37,785 bases of DNA, taken from the IMG/VR virus record IMGVR_UViG_3300025889_000350, positions 1-37,785 of that record. One strand, 5' to 3'. A program made the translations under genes and the position numbers. Below are positions 4,728 to 18,638 of this stretch, in pieces (the first letter of the stretch is position 1; every line of letters begins with the position of its first letter). A model generated the notes under the pieces. The model was not told the DNA's origin and did no database searches. It worked only from the letters and a program-made list of their open reading frames with translations. This DNA is from a virus.

Positions 4728-4754
4728 ACAATAGCACAGGTGTTGCAGTTATGC
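4728..4754 (-). promoter_or_regulatory. Putative late promoter for the portal-scaffold operon
   Basis: On the minus strand a -35-like TAGCAT (4756-4751) and a -10-like TATTGT (4733-4728) are separated by 17 bases. The 27-base element 4754-4728 matches the one upstream of capsid (37625-37599) at 19 positions, including GCATA, TGCAACA and GCTA. The terL stop codon lies inside it. It would start transcription about 20 bases before the ribosome binding site of gene 4485-4697. Confidence 0.6.
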
Positions 4755-6286
4755 TACCCTAATACGCTATAATCCATCCCGGTTGCAAGGAGACGTTTTT
4801 TCCTGAACCTGCTTATCCCTGCATCTTTCCGCGCCACTGATCGGCTGAACGTCATAGCCAGCGCGTCTCCGCTGTTAGGCGACGCATACCCGCGCCGCTT
4901 CATCTTATCCTTCGGCTCTAGCTTCATCTGCCCCTTGAGCGAATAGTCGTACATTGGCGCGCCCAGGTCATCCGCCAACTGCCTATCTTCCGGCAGTGCT
5001 GCTGTCGGCAGCCACTCTCGCATGCGCCCCCACAACTCAGTCCGGTGATTAGCGTACATATCCTTATCTTGCGCCCCGCCTCCGGCCGTCACTTCCATTA
5101 CCCGGTAGCCGTAATGTTTCAGGATGTCGATCACACCACCCCCAACGCCATCACCTTCGATGAACACAGCATCCGGCTTGTAGCGATCAATAGCCGCCGC
5201 ACAATACTCGGCCAGCTCGGTCGTGCTGCACCGCTTATATTTCTGCCACTCAATGCTCTTAGCGTCACGGCCGCACCGAAACGCTATCACGGCCTCGTCA
5301 TCCCCGAACCGCGCCGGGTCGACCCCCATCAGCAACGGCGCGCCTGGGTCATCCACCGCTTCCCTGTCCATTGCGTCCGTAATCTCGCCCCGGCTGATAA
5401 ACTGTTGATCCCCCTGGCGCGGAAATTCCCCATATACCTCGACGCGCGCCTGGTCGCTATCCTCACCGTATTGCGCGATGATGCTGTCATACAGCGTCTG
5501 GTCGTTCTCTGATACCGATCTGGCGTCGATCGTCGTCGTAACCCAATGCGCCCGATTAGAGTGAAAGCACTCAAAAAACGGCCCCGACGGGTTTCGCGGG
5601 TTGCTGATAGCGATCCACACGCGATGCACCGTTTTATCTGTAAAATATCCCTGCGTTACCGGCCAGATCGGCGCGGGGATGCCGCTCGCCTCATCGAATA
5701 GCACCACCATACCGCGCTGACTATGCACGCCGGCGAAAGCGTCAGGGTTTTCTTCAGACCATAAACGCGCCTGGATATACCAATACGCGTCATCCAGGTC
5801 AGTTGACGATTTCAGCGTTTCGATCAGCCACGGCGCCGGTCTAAGGCTCATAGCGTTATGCTCGAACCAGTTAGCGTTGATCGCCATCGTCGCCCATTTT
5901 CGTATCTCAGGAAACGTGGTCGACTTCAGCTGTTGCTCGGTGTTGGCGCTGACAACCGTCGTACTTGCCGGGACGCAAGAGAATATCCATAGCGCAATCC
6001 ACGACAGAAACGCCGTCTTGCCGGTGCCGCGACCAGAGCTGAAAGCCATCTTCAACAGCTCAGGGTCGATCTTTTGCCTGACCTTGTTCCTGTTGGTGGC
6101 GATATGGTCCCTGATTTTAGTGAGAGCTTCTAGCTGCCAGCCGCGAGGGCCGGTCATATTTTCCAGCGGAGAGTTAGGCTTTCCCCAAGGGAAGGCAAAA
6201 AGAACGAAAGCCAAAGGGTCGTCAGCTAAAGTTAGCAGCTTGGAGATAAGCTGTTGTTCGTCAGTTCTTGGTTGAGGTTTTGACAT
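4754..6286 (-). CDS. terL: Terminase large subunit (packaging ATPase/nuclease)
   Basis: The protein has 510 residues. The ATPase part has a Walker A at 83-91 (SSGRGTGKT), a Walker B at 194-199 (VVLFDE) and a coupling/SNP segment at 228-230. The RNase H-like nuclease part has acidic residues at D323 (MGVDPARFGDD), E377 with D379 (VFIEGDG) and D474 (SGDALAM). These are all the motifs expected of a working terminase motor, which pumps DNA through the portal and cuts the concatemer. The start ATG at 6286 lies inside a perfect operator-like palindrome (6280-6293). An AAAGGG sequence lies about nine bases upstream. A 143-base gap separates it from terS. Confidence 0.95.
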   Translation of the reverse strand: MSKPQPRTDEQQLISKLLTLADDPLAFVLFAFPWGKPNSPLENMTGPRGWQLEALTKIRDHIATNRNKVRQKIDPELLKMAFSSGRGTGKTAFLSWIALWIFSCVPASTTVVSANTEQQLKSTTFPEIRKWATMAINANWFEHNAMSLRPAPWLIETLKSSTDLDDAYWYIQARLWSEENPDAFAGVHSQRGMVVLFDEASGIPAPIWPVTQGYFTDKTVHRVWIAISNPRNPSGPFFECFHSNRAHWVTTTIDARSVSENDQTLYDSIIAQYGEDSDQARVEVYGEFPRQGDQQFISRGEITDAMDREAVDDPGAPLLMGVDPARFGDDEAVIAFRCGRDAKSIEWQKYKRCSTTELAEYCAAAIDRYKPDAVFIEGDGVGGGVIDILKHYGYRVMEVTAGGGAQDKDMYANHRTELWGRMREWLPTAALPEDRQLADDLGAPMYDYSLKGQMKLEPKDKMKRRGYASPNSGDALAMTFSRSVARKDAGISRFRKKRLLATGMDYSVLG

Positions 6287-6429: not shown

Positions 6430-6921
6430 CTAGTCCTCAGTTTTTGGTTTAAGCGATCGGCGCCGGCGCTTGTCTAAGCTCAACGCATTATCCTTATTGA
6501 CTAATGTCAATTTATTGAGCTTATCAGCTGCCGGCCGATCGCTATCAGCTGCCGGCCGATCGCTATCAGCTGCTGGCCGATCGCTATCAGCTGCTGGCGT
6601 GATGTCAATTATGCCGGCTTCGTACGCTCGCAAACGATCGCTGGCTTCCTGCATTGCGTCGCCTAGCGATACCGCAACGTTGACGGCCGTCTCGTTGGGC
6701 ATAACCTTTTGCAGCATGCCGACAAATAGCGCCGGCTTATTTTGTGCCAGCTCTAACATATAGCCTTTTGCGCCGTCCGGATGTGCAGCTGATAGCGCAT
6801 GGCGCAATGCTTCTGTTATCTCTTTGTTTAAAACTTCACGGCCGGCGCTCTTGCCTTTCGGATTAGGTGACGGCGCGCCTTTAATGAACTTTCCGCTGTC
6901 GTCTCGTTTTATGTTGCTCAT
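6430..6921 (-). CDS. terS: Terminase small subunit-like protein (DUF5681 type)
   Basis: The ATG at 6921 is preceded by AGGA six bases upstream and gives 163 residues; a GTG start at 6948 is possible but has no good ribosome site. The N-terminus DDSGKFIKGAPSPNPKGKSAGRE matches the DUF5681 pattern (GxSxNPxGR), found in small proteins next to terL that probably recognise the packaging site. A helical domain follows (about 27-85). Near residues 113-137 the seven-residue unit PAADSDR is repeated three times plus a partial copy. The C-terminus is basic. It is the first minus-strand gene leaving the 6.95 kb divergent control region. An operator-like site lies inside its 3' part. Confidence 0.8.
   Translation of the reverse strand: MSNIKRDDSGKFIKGAPSPNPKGKSAGREVLNKEITEALRHALSAAHPDGAKGYMLELAQNKPALFVGMLQKVMPNETAVNVAVSLGDAMQEASDRLRAYEAGIIDITPAADSDRPAADSDRPAADSDRPAADKLNKLTLVNKDNALSLDKRRRRSLKPKTED
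6497..6511. promoter_or_regulatory. Operator-like palindrome inside terS
   Basis: TTGACTAATGTCAAT matches the TTGACNNNTGTCAAT pattern exactly. It lies within the coding 3' part of terS, about 200 bases from the site over the terL start. Two sites at this spacing could allow looping or a transcription roadblock between terS and terL. Confidence 0.5.
6522..6598 (-). repeat. 21-base tandem repeat within terS
   Basis: Three full copies (6522-6542, 6543-6563, 6564-6584) and a 14-base partial copy (6585-6598) occur in a row. Copies 1 and 2 are identical and the third differs by one base. Each encodes the heptapeptide PAADSDR. The near-identity suggests recent slippage expansion. The unit contains the palindromes CAGCTG and CGATCG. 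Confidence 0.9.
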
Positions 6922-6939
6922 ACGGTATCCTGTTACCGT
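6922..6939. repeat. Inverted repeat next to the terS start codon
   Basis: ACGGTA and TACCGT form a perfect six-base inverted repeat around six bases, ending one base before the terS ATG at 6921. In RNA it would hide the AGGA ribosome site, so it could lower terS translation. As DNA it could be a protein-binding site. It is short, so chance is not excluded. Confidence 0.4.
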
Positions 6940-6952
6940 GATATTCACGTTC

Positions 6953-7052: not shown

Positions 7053-7268
7053 ATGGATTATAGAGACGCCAATTGTATAGAGCGCGATCGCGTTGCGCAT
7101 TATAGCCGCTCGTTTGGCGGTTTAACGTCAACACTGCGGCGCACTATTCGGCAGAACCCGGACGTTCCGACGTTCAACGCCTATTATGCGGCGCTGCCGG
7201 CGATCGCTAAAAAGCGGCATATGCGCGATATCCGCGCCGAATATAACCGCAAGTTCCGCTCTTCTTAA
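7053..7268 (+). CDS. Small basic protein, first gene of the early operon
   Basis: The ATG at 7053 follows the recurring leader GTGAAAGGTAAAGAC and gives 71 residues; a GTG at 7005 in the same frame lacks a ribosome site. The protein is rich in Arg and Tyr, with SRSFGGLTSTLRRTIRQNPD in the middle and a basic C-terminal helix (KKRHMRDIRAEYNRKF). No family is recognised. Its position as the first gene after an operator-controlled promoter is typical of early host-takeover proteins, which is inference only. Confidence 0.7.
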   Translation: MDYRDANCIERDRVAHYSRSFGGLTSTLRRTIRQNPDVPTFNAYYAALPAIAKKRHMRDIRAEYNRKFRSS

Positions 7269-7295: not shown

Positions 7296-7925
7296 ATGCT
7301 AAGCTTTAACACGTCTCTTATTCGCGCGGCCGATCAATTTAAATCGAATGAACAAACGCGCTACTATCTGCGCGGCGTTTTCTTTACGGCGCACGCGGTA
7401 CAAGGCGCGATCGGCGTTGCAACTGACGGCCATACGCTGTTGGCAGTCTATGATGAGAAGGGCTATTGCGAGCGCGATATGATCCTATCATTCGACAAGC
7501 CGACGTTGCAGCAGTTTAAACCGCAACGCGGCGACTACACCGAAAACCGGCGCGTTTTTATTGGCGCCGATCGCATGGCGAAAATTGTGCCTTGTGAAGA
7601 CGACACTACCGGCGCAACGTACGGCGTTGCGCAAGTGCAAGAGATTGACGGCACTTTTCCAAATTGGCGCGCGGTACTGCCGAAAACTGACAGTTCAGAA
7701 TTGGACCTGCCGAAAACGGCCGCAACTTTCGACGCGTCTTATATCGCCAAATTTTCAAAAATGATCGCCGAACTTGACTGCAAAAATGCCGGCATGGCGG
7801 TTAAACAATTCTCGCCTAATGCGCCGGCACTGGTAAAATTTGCGCGCGCCGACGTTTTCGGCGTGATTATGCCGCGCCGTGATGACGTCGACGGCGAAAA
7901 CTTGCCGGCTTGGATGAAAGGGTAA
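7296..7925 (+). CDS. Short DNA polymerase III beta-clamp-like protein
   Basis: The protein has 209 residues, against about 370 for a bacterial clamp. It carries clamp signatures in the right order: TRYYLRGVFF (21-30), GVATDGHTLLAV (40-51), FPNWRAVLP (121-129) and PALVKFARADVFGVIMPRR (177-195). The last matches the C-terminal strand that normally ends in MPMR. These correspond to the middle and C-terminal clamp domains; the N-terminal domain is missing. Clamps hold polymerases on DNA. A two-domain subunit would need three copies for a six-domain ring, as in T4 and PCNA, but might instead cap or compete with the host clamp. The leader is TGAAAGGGTAAAACA. Confidence 0.65.
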   Translation: MLSFNTSLIRAADQFKSNEQTRYYLRGVFFTAHAVQGAIGVATDGHTLLAVYDEKGYCERDMILSFDKPTLQQFKPQRGDYTENRRVFIGADRMAKIVPCEDDTTGATYGVAQVQEIDGTFPNWRAVLPKTDSSELDLPKTAATFDASYIAKFSKMIAELDCKNAGMAVKQFSPNAPALVKFARADVFGVIMPRRDDVDGENLPAWMKG

Positions 7926-8184: not shown

Positions 8185-8439
8185 ATGACCGATCAAAAAT
8201 ATAACGGTTGGGCAAACTACGAGACCTGGCGCGTTAATCTGGAACTATTTGACGGCTATGATCCAGACGGCAGCCCCGTCGACGGCGACATGCTGGCGGA
8301 CATGGCTGACGATTATTTGACGGCCGACGGCGCCGGTGGTTTAGCGCTAGACTATGCGCGCGCGTTTTTATCAGCTGTCAACTGGTATGAAATAGCCCGC
8401 GCCATAAACGAAAATAACGAACTGGACCCTGAAACATGA
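8185..8439 (+). CDS. Small acidic NGWxNYETW-family phage protein
   Basis: The protein has 84 residues and is strongly acidic. Near the N-terminus it has NGWANYETWRVNLELF, the hallmark of a widespread family of small phage proteins of unknown role (DUF7249-like, from memory). The rest is a helix with LADMADDYL and an end in NWYEIARAINENNE. The leader is TGAAAGGGTATAAACC. Its stop overlaps the next small frame (ATGA). Confidence 0.7.
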   Translation: MTDQKYNGWANYETWRVNLELFDGYDPDGSPVDGDMLADMADDYLTADGAGGLALDYARAFLSAVNWYEIARAINENNELDPET

Positions 8440-9860: not shown

Positions 9861-12098
9861 TTATATAAGGTTTTTCCATTCAGAATCGCTATGTACCTCT
9901 GTACCTTGCCTCAACGCTTTTACCCGAGTTTGAACGCCGTCAATTCTCGGACGAAAACCCTTCCGATCCCCCACGTAAAAAGACGGATCGGGCAGCCGCC
10001 GCCATATCCTCGCAACAAGTCCTTCAAGCGGCCGACCCTGCATGGTCGACGCCAGGCCGAGCTGGCCGGCCGCCTTGCGAGCGGCGTCGGCGAGTGTATC
10101 GCGCGTCATATAATCACGCTCCCAATTCTCTAAAATCCAGTCTTCTATCTCATCGTAAGACGACTTCGACGCGTTCTCCATTGTCCGCTTACCTTTCGTC
10201 TCTGGCGCGTAAACAACGTCACGATCGACGCAATATCGACGCAGATACCAATACAGCCGTATATGCTCCATACCATTTGGGTCGCGAATTTCATCAAAAA
10301 GCGGCTGATAATAGTCTACCTCTTTACGCTGTCGGGGATTGGTTATCACCATAATCCGCCGATCATCCTCTGGAATGCTGAGCGCGTCGGCGTGGTTGGT
10401 GAAAATCAACGCGTTAAAATATAAGTGTTCTAGGCGAACGCGACCAAATTTCGGATTAACGCGCATTTCGACCGGGCGCGGGTCGACGATCTGCTTAAAT
10501 TTCTCATAGCCCTTATAAAAATCGTCGGCTGACATGTTATCTTTCGCCTCTTCGACGGTGAGAAACTGACATCCTGATCCCCAATCATTATATGTCGCAT
10601 CAGCTGACGACCCTTTACCGATCAGTTGACCGAGCGTTGCCGGCTTGACGGCGCCGGGCAGCATCTTAGAGAGAAAGTCTTTAAGTAGGGAGCGGCCGAC
10701 GCCAAATTGTTCAGCGACCATGACACAAGCAAACCCCCGCAAGGCTGGGTTCTGTATCTTATGCGCGAGCCAGGCCATGAACCATGCGCGTTCGTCTGCG
10801 TCAGGAATAAGAAACTCAATATGGCGTAGGAAAAGCTCAGGCTCTTCATCCGTCTCTGACCATTGCGGCGGCACGTACAAGTTGCCGACGCGACCGCCGT
10901 TGACTGTCACGATTGGCTGGTCGTCCAAAGTTGGCACATACTTAATGTTTTCGACCCTGACCGTATCGCGGCTTTCGAGAAAAGCTGTCTTCAGCAGCAC
11001 CGTGCGGTCGCCGCCGGCGTTGACATGCAGGTAATACATATTACTGAAGTCGGCCAGGTCGATAACAGGATCGCGGCCGTTGATACGGGCTTCCAGGTCG
11101 AAGACCTTTGAGCCGGACTGAACGAACGCAAAACGCTGTTGAATGACAGGCAGCGGGTCATAACCCATAGCTGCCGGCCCGCCGCGCTCGACGATCCACT
11201 CACTCAGGTCGCCGATACGCTTTGTCTTGCAATGCTCATGCAGGCATTTGAATGCGCGGGTGTGCTTAAACTGACCATCGCCGTGACCGAGAGGATTATA
11301 CCCGGCCGTGTCGGCGCCGGTGGTGTGCTGCTCGGACCAGGGGCATTTAATATCAGTCCAGCCATTACTGCCGACAGCCCCACGCAGTAAGCCCTCAGCT
11401 TCCAGCCAGGTCAAAACGGGGTCAACGAAACTGCCGTGCGTCTGGTAGACGGCAGACGTTGAGACTTCAGCTACCTTGACCTTGCAAGCCGCAAGCTCAG
11501 CGTCAGTGATGTTGAACGCGTCGATAAGCTCTTGCAGGGTCCAATCGACGTCTTGCCAGCTGTCTAAACGTGCCTTGAACATATTATTCTTAGGCTTCAG
11601 GTTACAGCTCGACGGTAAGCGCATGATCCGGTACGCGCCACCGGCACCGGCATCGCCATAGCCGCGCTGCACAAGAACCTCGACGACCGTCTCATACAGC
11701 TCGAAATCAGTACCGGGAACGAGCAGATAGCCCCACTGGTAGTTACCGGGTGACGTCTCTAGCTTCCAGCTAGGCTCTACGCCAGGAGCATCCGCCTTAG
11801 TGCCGATATCGTCGAGAACGAGAGCGTAATACCGTTTGAGGTGCTGACGGCCGCGCTTGGTCTGGCCAGTGGCCTCATCGAACGTGCCGTCAACGCTGCA
11901 AAGGCTGAAGTACCAGGCCGCCTCGGTACGGTTCGGGTTGCGGAGCCACCGCTTAAAACCATCGTCGTTGGGAAAACGGTTAAGAAAAATGATGTCGCCG
12001 TCATCCTTAACGATTTGTTTGGAAACGCAGACATACTCATCATCGGCGATATGCTCAAAAACACTATTGAGAAAAGTTGCGGCATCATGTACGGTCAT
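9861..12098 (-). CDS. Primase-helicase: AEP primase plus SF3-type helicase (DUF5906-like)
   Basis: The ATG at 12098 follows AAAGGA by nine bases and gives 745 residues; a GTG 18 bases upstream is less likely. The N-terminal RepB-like archaeo-eukaryotic primase domain has LDDIG at 95-99 (metal-binding Asp), SPGNYQ at 116-121 and RLPSSCNLKP at 160-169. A zinc-binding segment follows (C252, H258, C285, C290). The C-terminal helicase has a Walker A-like GVGRS at 466-470 with Arg in place of the usual Lys, a Walker B-like TVEEAKD at 514-520, and FTNHADAL...DDRR at 566-581. A helical C-terminal region completes it. Such proteins open the origin, prime and unwind DNA at the fork. The gene stands alone on the minus strand, divergent from the other replication genes. 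Confidence 0.85.
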   Translation of the reverse strand: MTVHDAATFLNSVFEHIADDEYVCVSKQIVKDDGDIIFLNRFPNDDGFKRWLRNPNRTEAAWYFSLCSVDGTFDEATGQTKRGRQHLKRYYALVLDDIGTKADAPGVEPSWKLETSPGNYQWGYLLVPGTDFELYETVVEVLVQRGYGDAGAGGAYRIMRLPSSCNLKPKNNMFKARLDSWQDVDWTLQELIDAFNITDAELAACKVKVAEVSTSAVYQTHGSFVDPVLTWLEAEGLLRGAVGSNGWTDIKCPWSEQHTTGADTAGYNPLGHGDGQFKHTRAFKCLHEHCKTKRIGDLSEWIVERGGPAAMGYDPLPVIQQRFAFVQSGSKVFDLEARINGRDPVIDLADFSNMYYLHVNAGGDRTVLLKTAFLESRDTVRVENIKYVPTLDDQPIVTVNGGRVGNLYVPPQWSETDEEPELFLRHIEFLIPDADERAWFMAWLAHKIQNPALRGFACVMVAEQFGVGRSLLKDFLSKMLPGAVKPATLGQLIGKGSSADATYNDWGSGCQFLTVEEAKDNMSADDFYKGYEKFKQIVDPRPVEMRVNPKFGRVRLEHLYFNALIFTNHADALSIPEDDRRIMVITNPRQRKEVDYYQPLFDEIRDPNGMEHIRLYWYLRRYCVDRDVVYAPETKGKRTMENASKSSYDEIEDWILENWERDYMTRDTLADAARKAAGQLGLASTMQGRPLEGLVARIWRRLPDPSFYVGDRKGFRPRIDGVQTRVKALRQGTEVHSDSEWKNLI

Positions 12099-12135
12099 AT
12101 TCGTTAATCCTTTCACTGGTTGACACTATTACCTC

Positions 12136-16115: not shown

Positions 16116-18143
16116 ATGAAAATCTTACACGTTGACTTCGAAACATATTCTCGTTGCAATCTCATTGCGCACGGCGCTCATGCGTATGCGCAGCATATCA
16201 GTACCGGCGTTCACTGCATGGGGTACGCGTTCGATGATGAAGAGCCGCGTCTATGGCTACCGTCTCAACGCTTTCCGCAAGACGTCATTGACCATATCGA
16301 AGCTGGCGGCATGTTGCATTGCCACAACGCGCAGTTTGAACGGCTGATATTCTGGTATGTCGTATGCCCTGACCATGACGTACCTGAGCCTGCTATGGAG
16401 CAATTTTATTGCACGGCAGCTCAGGCCAGATGCCGGGCGCTGCCGGCTAACCTAGACGATCTGGGCCGGTGCCTGGGGTTATCGCTTCTTAAAGATAAAC
16501 GCGGCAAGGAGCTTATCAAGCTGCTCTGCATACCGAATAAGGAGACGGGCGCGTTTAATCGTGATCCTGAGCTGCTGCAAGAGCTGTATGATTACTGTTT
16601 ACAGGACGTCCGCGTTGAGCGCCTGGCGGCCGACTGCACGCCAGCTATGACGGCTGACGAGCTTGCGACGTATCACGCTATGGAGCGGATCAACGACGCC
16701 GGACTTATGGTTGACGTCGAGCTGGCTAAAGCCGCTGGCCGGTACGCCGCACTTGAGCTAGATGAGATATGCCAACAGCTGATAACTGTCACTAACGGCC
16801 AGATACACACACCGCGCCAATATCAGAAGGTTAAAGACTTCATACTGGCCCGAGGCGGCGAGCTGGCGCGCAAGGCTATGACGGTGGTAAAAACCGACCG
16901 CAAAACGGGTATGGAAGAGCGAAAGGTGTCATTCGGTAAGGATAACAGGCGCCGGCTGTTAGAGATTTCTGAAGCTGACCCTGACTTCTTACCGCCGGAA
17001 GCATTGCAGGTTATCGGCCTGGTCGACGACGCAGGGCGATCATCAGTTTCTAAGTTTGAGAATATGGTGAAGCGCGCTGACGTAGAGGATCACCGCGTTC
17101 GTGGTGCGTATATCTGTTTCGGCGCCGGCCAGACCGGCCGCGCCAGCTCAATCGGGCTTCAGGTTCATAACCTACCTCGCAACACTGCAAAAGACCCTGA
17201 CGCAGTGCGGCGCTGGATCATCGAAGATCGTGAGCTGCCGGGCGTTATGGATACGCTATCGTCTATGTTAAGACCTGCGATCATAACGCCACCAGGTAAG
17301 TATTTCGCATGCGGTGATTGGTCAGCGATCGAAGCGCGCGTATTGCCGTGGCTGTCGAAGTCCAACGGCGGCAGTTATGTGCTGGACGTGTTCGCGGAAG
17401 TTGACGCGGACCCTGACGCGCCGGACCTTTACATGATCGAAGCCGGTAATCTGTTCAATAAAGACCCTAAGACGGTCACGAAAAATGAGCGCGCGATCGG
17501 TAAGGTCGAGGTTTTGGCGCTTGGGTATCAAGGCGGGTATCGCGCGTTTCAGGCAATGGCGCGGGGGTACGGTATTACTGTTAGTGATGAAGAAGCCGAG
17601 AAGATTAAAGATACGTGGCGTTTCAATAACCAGTGGGCCGTCGATTTCTGGAAAGAGCTTAACCAAGCGGCGCTGGCGGCCGTGTTTGCGCCTGGCACTG
17701 AGACAAAAGCTGGTCGGGTATCGTACTACCATGCCGGCGACGGCCACCCTCTATATTGCATGCTGCCGAGCGGGCGAGCGCTGTCATACCCGCAAGTAAA
17801 ACTTGAAGAAGGCGACTATGGCCCTGAGCTGACGGCCGTAAAGGGTCAATGGAAGCCAAAAGCTGACGAAACGGAATGGCCTCGTATCAAGCTATACGGC
17901 GGCCTACTTGCCGAGAATATAACCCAAGCGGCGAGCGCAGACATACTATTCAACGCAGTACGCAATGCGCTAGCTGCCGAGTTAAATGTTGTCGGCACGA
18001 CACATGATGAATTGCTTATAGAGACGTCAAAACCTGATATTGACAAATGTAAATTAGTCGATATTATGATGGAAATTCCAGAGTGGGCTGAAGGTCTGCC
18101 AATGGCGGTCGAAGCCTGGACAGGGAAGAGGTATCGTAAATGA
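16116..18143 (+). CDS. polA: Family A DNA polymerase with 3'-5' exonuclease
   Basis: The protein has 675 residues. The proofreading domain has ExoI D7/E9 (HVDFET), ExoII around N71 (HNAQFE) and ExoIII Y160/D164 (YCLQD). The polymerase domain has motif A with D401 (DWSAIEARVL), motif B R459/K463 with Y471 (RAIGKVEVLALGYQGG) and motif C H630-D631-E632 (THDE). This is the phage-type PolA found with SNF2 helicase and DUF2800 nuclease genes, and it should copy the phage genome. There is no Shine-Dalgarno sequence: the five bases between the terminator T tract and the ATG read CCTCC. The next gene overlaps its stop (ATGA). Confidence 0.95.
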   Translation: MKILHVDFETYSRCNLIAHGAHAYAQHISTGVHCMGYAFDDEEPRLWLPSQRFPQDVIDHIEAGGMLHCHNAQFERLIFWYVVCPDHDVPEPAMEQFYCTAAQARCRALPANLDDLGRCLGLSLLKDKRGKELIKLLCIPNKETGAFNRDPELLQELYDYCLQDVRVERLAADCTPAMTADELATYHAMERINDAGLMVDVELAKAAGRYAALELDEICQQLITVTNGQIHTPRQYQKVKDFILARGGELARKAMTVVKTDRKTGMEERKVSFGKDNRRRLLEISEADPDFLPPEALQVIGLVDDAGRSSVSKFENMVKRADVEDHRVRGAYICFGAGQTGRASSIGLQVHNLPRNTAKDPDAVRRWIIEDRELPGVMDTLSSMLRPAIITPPGKYFACGDWSAIEARVLPWLSKSNGGSYVLDVFAEVDADPDAPDLYMIEAGNLFNKDPKTVTKNERAIGKVEVLALGYQGGYRAFQAMARGYGITVSDEEAEKIKDTWRFNNQWAVDFWKELNQAALAAVFAPGTETKAGRVSYYHAGDGHPLYCMLPSGRALSYPQVKLEEGDYGPELTAVKGQWKPKADETEWPRIKLYGGLLAENITQAASADILFNAVRNALAAELNVVGTTHDELLIETSKPDIDKCKLVDIMMEIPEWAEGLPMAVEAWTGKRYRK

Positions 18144-18313
18144 GCGCTATGGATAGATACGTCATAAAAGACGGCGAGGATTATATCTTAGTCTCTGAAA
18201 ACGACGGGTGGACTTTCTTAAATCGCGGGCCTGAACGCACTGAACGCGTCCTTGATATGTCAAACCCTAAAGACATTGAGATTTTGGAACGATATTATGT
18301 CCAAGCGTCCTGA
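18140..18313 (+). CDS. Small protein of unknown function (57 aa)
   Basis: The ATG overlaps the polymerase stop by four bases (ATGA), so translation is probably coupled. The 57-residue product has strands (RYVIKDGEDYILVSENDGWTF) and then a helix (DIEILERYYVQAS). It is acidic, and no family is recognised. It overlaps the next gene by 17 bases. Confidence 0.6.
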   Translation: MSAMDRYVIKDGEDYILVSENDGWTFLNRGPERTERVLDMSNPKDIEILERYYVQAS

Positions 18314-18638
18314 TAACAACCCTAAGTCCAAGTACGGTATGCAAAAGCCATCGCTTGGTCTTATTCCGAAAGCAGCAATGGAAGCAGCGGCGGGCGCGCA
18401 CCAGTTGGGAGCCGACAAGTACGGTCCCTGGAACTGGCGGGAGAACTCTGTCGCTGCTTCTGTTTACGTGAACGCCATGCTGCGCCATATCAAGGCGTGG
18501 CAAGAGAGTGAAGACATCGACCCAGAGAGCGGCGTGTCCCACCTGGGTCACGTCATGGCCTGTTGCGGTATTCTGTTGGATGCCCAGGCTGTAGGTAACT
18601 TGATAGACGACAGACCAGTGAGAAAGGACAAGAAATGA
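18297..18638 (+). CDS. dATP/dGTP pyrophosphohydrolase-like protein (DUF5664/MazZ-like)
   Basis: The ATG at 18297 gives 113 residues; a frame extension upstream to 18252 lacks a ribosome site. The sequence GADKYGPWNWRE (about 38-49), then YVNAMLRHIKAWQ (56-68), DPESGVSHLGHVMACCGILLDA (74-95), matches the DUF5664 family (dATP/dGTP diphosphohydrolase N-terminal domain). Glu, Asp and His residues in these helices are the expected metal ligands. Related MazZ enzymes in 2-aminoadenine phages remove dATP and make dGMP as a precursor. Here no PurZ-like gene is present, so nucleotide-pool control is the safer reading. Confidence 0.78.
   Translation: MSKRPDNNPKSKYGMQKPSLGLIPKAAMEAAAGAHQLGADKYGPWNWRENSVAASVYVNAMLRHIKAWQESEDIDPESGVSHLGHVMACCGILLDAQAVGNLIDDRPVRKDKK

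Follow-up and report, generated by a model that had tools for sequence, protein, structure and literature searches.

What does a phage gain from a sliding-clamp homologue little more than half the length of its bacterial counterpart? The question is raised by an open reading frame at positions 7296-7925 of IMG/VR virus record IMGVR_UViG_3300025889_000350, of which the whole 37,785-nucleotide stretch analysed is referred to here as the window. The record carries terminase, portal, tail, primase, PolA, helicase, and exonuclease genes. An earlier note on the same DNA had read the product as a phage-encoded clamp of two domains that might either assemble into a trimeric ring or act on the clamp of the host.

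Homology and naming of the family

The open reading frame begins with ATG behind a plausible ribosome-binding block (GAAAGGG) and encodes 209 amino acids. Near-identical ribosome-binding blocks (TGAAAGGGTAAAAC-ATG and variants) precede the consecutive small genes at 7053, 7296, 7930, and 8185, and for the first of these, ATG 7053 is a likelier start than the GTG 7005 of its listed open reading frame. The protein displays the DnaN signatures RYYLRG, TDGH, IDGTFPNW, and VIMPRR. When searched alone, it matches E. coli DnaN chains weakly (single-sequence phmmer, E 2.6e-4) and the phage clamp group PHROG 947 at E 2.2e-8, while its Pfam match to the DnaN central domain is only sub-threshold. With a profile of the 58-member family, DnaN chains are retrieved at E 1.1e-29; searched one by one, 54 members match PF02767 (DNA_pol3_beta_2). 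AlphaFold models of the window protein and of a homologue from locus L122 both match DnaN chains in Foldseek (E 8e-8 and 7e-9, respectively). The clamp homology read by the earlier note was borne out. That these proteins, hereafter mini-clamps, are homologues of sliding clamps beyond chance is settled. The homology is already present in databases, under entries such as "DNA polymerase III beta subunit, central domain" and "DNA Pol III b subunit fragment". Among open-licence papers, we found none on short clamp-like phage proteins, their architecture of one and a half domains, or their function.

A different name has nevertheless been attached to many of these proteins. All 58 aligned members match PHROG 3007, to which the window protein aligns at E 3.9e-27 (residues 2-197 on profile positions 3-187 of 190), and PHROG 3007, PHROG 12598, and many RefSeq phage records (those of loci L033, L037, L038, and L040 included) name clamp-like proteins "RusA-like Holliday junction resolvase". 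If the name were correct, the window gene would encode a resolvase. However, none of the 58 members has a RusA match in Pfam, against the 54 that match DNA_pol3_beta_2, and the strong matches in Foldseek and profile searches are sliding clamps. A resolvase is therefore barely credible, and the RusA name looks like an annotation error that has been propagated from record to record.

Relatives were found by tblastn in 166 phage records, and at least 514 stretches were confirmed in IMG/VR; single-protein scans of IMG/VR added few new relatives, and an identical protein occurs in two further IMG/VR contigs. The window protein is only 20%–36% identical to the other members of the alignment. It could be argued that such proteins are functionless, decaying remnants of a full-length phage or host clamp, since they are truncated forms of a known protein and the member in Bcep781 is recorded as a "DNA Pol III b subunit fragment". 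We regard this as highly improbable, as all short members examined share the same short architecture (170-232 amino acids in most), median dN/dS lies between 0.05 and 0.13 in four clades, and the pocket residues described below are nearly invariant. The mini-clamp family is under purifying selection.

Domain architecture, ring interface, and docking pocket

Two separate deletions stand out when the mini-clamp is aligned by MAFFT to E. coli DnaN and to a full-length phage clamp, that of Rhizobium phage RR1-A: one removes domain 1, the other a block inside domain 3. When the C-terminal parts of 50 members were compared with domain 3 of six full-length clamps in hhalign, they were placed on E. 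coli residues 316-366 (single-pair E 3.9e-14) and residues from about 256 to 309 were left out. The HMMER alignment to DnaN chain 6ams breaks in the same way, covering 139-253 and then 317-366. A first L-INS-i alignment had matched the final helix to the first half of domain 3, leaving N320 and Y323 unaligned; it was overruled by the hhalign and 6ams alignments in favor of the second half. The AlphaFold model of the window protein, calculated from a 58-sequence alignment (pLDDT 86.5, pTM 0.85), contains a pair of beta-alpha-beta-beta-beta motifs and, after it, one more such motif on its own, so that one and a half processivity-fold domains are present rather than three. The mini-clamp joins domain 2 of DnaN to the second half of domain 3 (Table 1). 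As such, the earlier note was right about the clamp signatures and the loss of domain 1, but domain 3, which it had taken to be whole, is represented only by its C-terminal half.

Table 1. Positions of the mini-clamp gene, its parts, and its genomic landmarks in the window.
Feature	Position	Strand	Basis
Large terminase gene, syntenic with relatives upstream of the mini-clamp	4754..6286	-	
Mini-clamp gene, 209 aa, domain 2 and C-terminal half of domain 3 of the DnaN fold	7296..7925	+	Alignments, profiles, AlphaFold
Domain-2-like part, residues 1-123, two beta-alpha-beta-beta-beta motifs	7296..7664	+	AlphaFold model, alignments
RYYLRG motif, with R152 and L155 of the E. coli DnaN pocket	7359..7376	+	Alignment; pocket list PMC11139829
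TDGH motif, pocket residues T172, G174, H175	7422..7433	+	Alignment; pocket list PMC11139829
IDGTFPNW motif, domain 2/3 junction, contains pocket residue P242	7644..7667	+	Alignment
Approximate junction; E. coli 256-309 missing (first half of domain 3, with I272/L273/E298/E304)	7698..7703	+	hhalign, MAFFT
Residues 142-196 (FDASY ... VIMPRR), C-terminal half of domain 3, corresponding to E. coli 316-366	7719..7883	+	hhalign, HMMER, AlphaFold
VIMPRR motif, pocket residues V360, M362, P363, R365	7863..7880	+	Alignment; pocket list PMC11139829
C-terminal tail, 13 residues past the DnaN end, variable among relatives	7884..7922	+	Family alignment
Primase gene, syntenic with relatives downstream of the mini-clamp	9861..12116	-	
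Phage PolA-type DNA polymerase, 675 aa, without canonical clamp-binding motif	16116..18143	+	

In the model of the window protein, domain 2 has only a short second DNA-facing helix, and in that of the L122 homologue (pLDDT 94) this helix is absent. The segment is similarly short in loci L096 and L081 and in other relatives of L122, which amounts to a still smaller mini-clamp. Because the Foldseek TM-scores to DnaN reach only 0.6-0.67 for both models, it is possible that the half-domain does not sit against domain 2 as it does in DnaN, and that the geometry of the pocket differs as well. A split clamp with domain 1 encoded elsewhere was also considered and was ruled out, as a separate domain-1 gene (PF00712) is absent from 33 of the 34 records searched, the exception being the full-length clamp of RR1-A.

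The dimer interface of DnaN is formed by I78, F106, I272, and L273, together with R103, E298, and E304 (PMC11139829), and R103 and I305 are also named in the title of structure 3pwe. All seven of the former residues fall within stretches deleted from the mini-clamp; judged from the alignments, the two deletions remove both sides of the canonical ring-closing interface. Three copies would moreover supply 4.5 domains instead of six, which disfavors a trimeric ring of complete domains. The trimer of two-domain subunits proposed earlier is rejected in that form.

A genuine sliding clamp for the phage PolA could still close by a new oligomeric arrangement, for example by pairing of the half-domains 3 such that four subunits yield six domains. 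The arithmetic is favorable, since three half-domains per chain give twelve in four chains, as in a six-domain ring, and Y153 and Y154, which we take to be DNA contacts of the clamp, have been kept. However, pairing of half-domains would, by our reasoning, flip the ring faces if the two-fold axis of the domain is radial, and this arrangement has to manage without any of the canonical interface residues and with the DNA-facing helix reduced or lost. We consider a ring of this kind unlikely.

What has been retained is the site at which clamp partners dock. In DnaN, subsite I of this pocket comprises R152, L155, T172, G174, H175, R176, L177, P242, R246, V247, V360, and M362, and subsite II comprises H175, N320, Y323, V344, M362, P363, M364, and R365 (PMC11139829). 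Across the 58-member family, mean entropy is 0.82 bits at the 16 alignable pocket columns versus 2.50 elsewhere, and identity to E. coli is 79% in pocket columns versus 20% elsewhere (permutation p about 5e-5), figures to be read with the caveat that the pocket motifs are the strongest anchors of the alignment and are conserved in clamps generally. Most members have N or D at the N320 position and Y at the Y323 position. Of the 18 pocket residues, the window protein shares 13 with E. coli; the changes are R176 to T, R246 to A, N320 to D, and M364 to R, and the V344 position is occupied by P, where the alignment is uncertain. By these comparisons, the partner-binding pocket between domains 2 and 3 has been kept and is strongly conserved, and we infer that it is probably functional in the mini-clamp. 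Action on functions of the host clamp, the other option raised by the earlier note, would fit better than a ring because the partner-binding pocket is what evolution kept.

Genome context and candidate partners

In the window, the mini-clamp gene lies inside a short group of plus-strand genes between the terminase and primase genes, and the order terL, mini-clamp, primase is common to about 30 relatives. No convincing sigma-70-type promoter was found upstream of the gene. Its distance from the polymerase gene, to which the earlier note had drawn attention, is indeed considerable here (8.2 kb), whereas polA is followed directly by the mini-clamp gene (4 to 101 bp) in Acinetobacter phage 4316, L077-L079, and L088. 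Among the other PolA-bearing loci, polA is in most cases encoded on the opposite strand, at a distance of 2.5-4.5 kb. PolA (PF00476) was detected in 22 of 34 mini-clamp records compared with 8 of 23 random viral contigs, with a one-sided p of 0.025 for samples that are not independent. Phage AH2 is negative for PF00476, yet a DNA polymerase is annotated in it. In the complete genomes of STGO-35-1 (Salmonella), KpnS_VR6602 (Klebsiella), and the temperate D14E (Pseudomonas), all of which carry the mini-clamp gene, a polymerase is neither detected nor annotated. None of the 34 records encodes Pol III alpha, and the idea that these phages bring their own Pol III alpha was rejected.

Several smaller features of these neighborhoods were also recorded. 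In 12 other loci, a relative of the small gene at 8185-8439 (+) accompanies the mini-clamp gene, on the same strand and at a median distance of about 94 bp, which suggests that its product is functionally linked to the mini-clamp. A ParB-like gene is found within a few kb of the mini-clamp gene in several phages (L035, L038, and L040), and in D14E a cytosine methyltransferase gene and a deoxyribosyltransferase-like gene are nearby. The small gene adjoining the large terminase gene (6430-6948, -) encodes a tandem PAADSDR repeat. Finally, the 128-residue product of 18252-18638 (+) matches both PHROG 2252 ("endolysin; inhibits RNA polymerase") and PHROG 801 (dATP/dGTP pyrophosphohydrolase), and the endolysin name is doubtful for it.

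The association with polA, by adjacency in some genomes and by co-occurrence, may be read in favor of the unconventional ring and also of a non-ring accessory subunit, an adaptor that would use the old clamp pocket to bind and tether the phage PolA, SSB, or primase. The latter reading also draws on the terL-mini-clamp-primase synteny and on Xanthomonas phage Rb1, in which the mini-clamp gene is situated between an RdgC-like gene and an SSB gene. However, the gene also occurs in genomes without any PolA, including complete ones with no polymerase of their own, which counts against both readings. Against the accessory subunit, no canonical clamp-binding motif was found in the proteins of the window or in 22 PolA relatives. 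This points, weakly, to a host ligand rather than a phage one, since chance alone would give the window only about 1.4 and 1.3 matches for the two patterns, and with either of them roughly one shuffle in four yields none. We consider an accessory subunit of the phage replisome rather improbable, although less so than a ring.

The DnaN pocket binds the QLxLF-type clamp-binding motifs carried by polymerases, the clamp-loader subunit delta, and repair or initiation factors. We hypothesize, at close to an even chance, that the mini-clamp is incompetent to form a ring and engages the clamp-binding motifs of host replication proteins off DNA, as a decoy or an adaptor. More specifically, its pocket would bind such motifs as a soluble protein, without encircling DNA, and the mini-clamp would then compete with the host DnaN ring or bring a partner to phage DNA. 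The partner would thus be a host protein and the effect competition or redirection. Host delta is a good candidate because it is reported to bind a monomeric DnaN mutant about 50-fold tighter than the ring (PMC11139829). Other phage proteins shut down replication of the host by attacking the same node in other ways: N4 gp8 acts on HolA, and Twort gp168 and G1 gp240 act on DnaN (PMC3594737).

The narrower proposal that the mini-clamp is a soluble decoy, one that strips the host replisome of its clamp loader or of other proteins that bind the clamp, and hence a case of viral molecular mimicry of the clamp, is one that we hold more tentatively and would on balance not expect. A point against the hypothesis in its broader form as well is that several complete phages without a recognizable polymerase must use the host Pol III, and a general Pol III blocker would harm them; the mini-clamp is thus presumably not a complete Pol III blocker everywhere. 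In such phages, it may instead serve as an adaptor or be directed at only some of the partners, for example Hda, MutL, or Pol IV.

Significance and comparison with known systems

If the proposed engagement of host clamp-binding motifs is correct, hundreds of phages, among them phages of Salmonella, Klebsiella, Pseudomonas, Burkholderia, and Acinetobacter, encode a protein that naturally competes for the DnaN docking site, which is already an antibiotic target. Should the protein instead form an unusual ring, no smaller clamp subunit of DnaN descent would be known to us. The family is easy to test and has been hidden under a wrong name in many annotated genomes.

With bacterial DnaN (PF00712/PF02767/PF02768), the mini-clamp shares the central domain, the pocket motifs RYYL, TDGH, DGxFPxW, and MPxR, and the fold of the retained parts, but it lacks domain 1, the first half of domain 3, and the ring-interface residues, and has about 210 residues compared with about 366. 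The full-length phage clamps of PHROG 947, such as that of Rhizobium phage RR1-A, share homology with it in domain 2 and at the end of domain 3, while they possess all three domains and retain the segment deleted in the mini-clamp. The proteins of PHROG 3007 (for instance, Bcep781 gp15, Dhillonvirus EP23p08, and Salmonella phage STGO-35-1 gp41) are the mini-clamp family itself, with the same architecture; the functional name of this group appears to be wrong, and the window protein differs in its extended C-terminal tail. Twort gp168, G1 gp240, and N4 gp8, compared here by description only, are described without mention of clamp homology (PMC3594737), and they act on the very node that we propose as the target of the mini-clamp.
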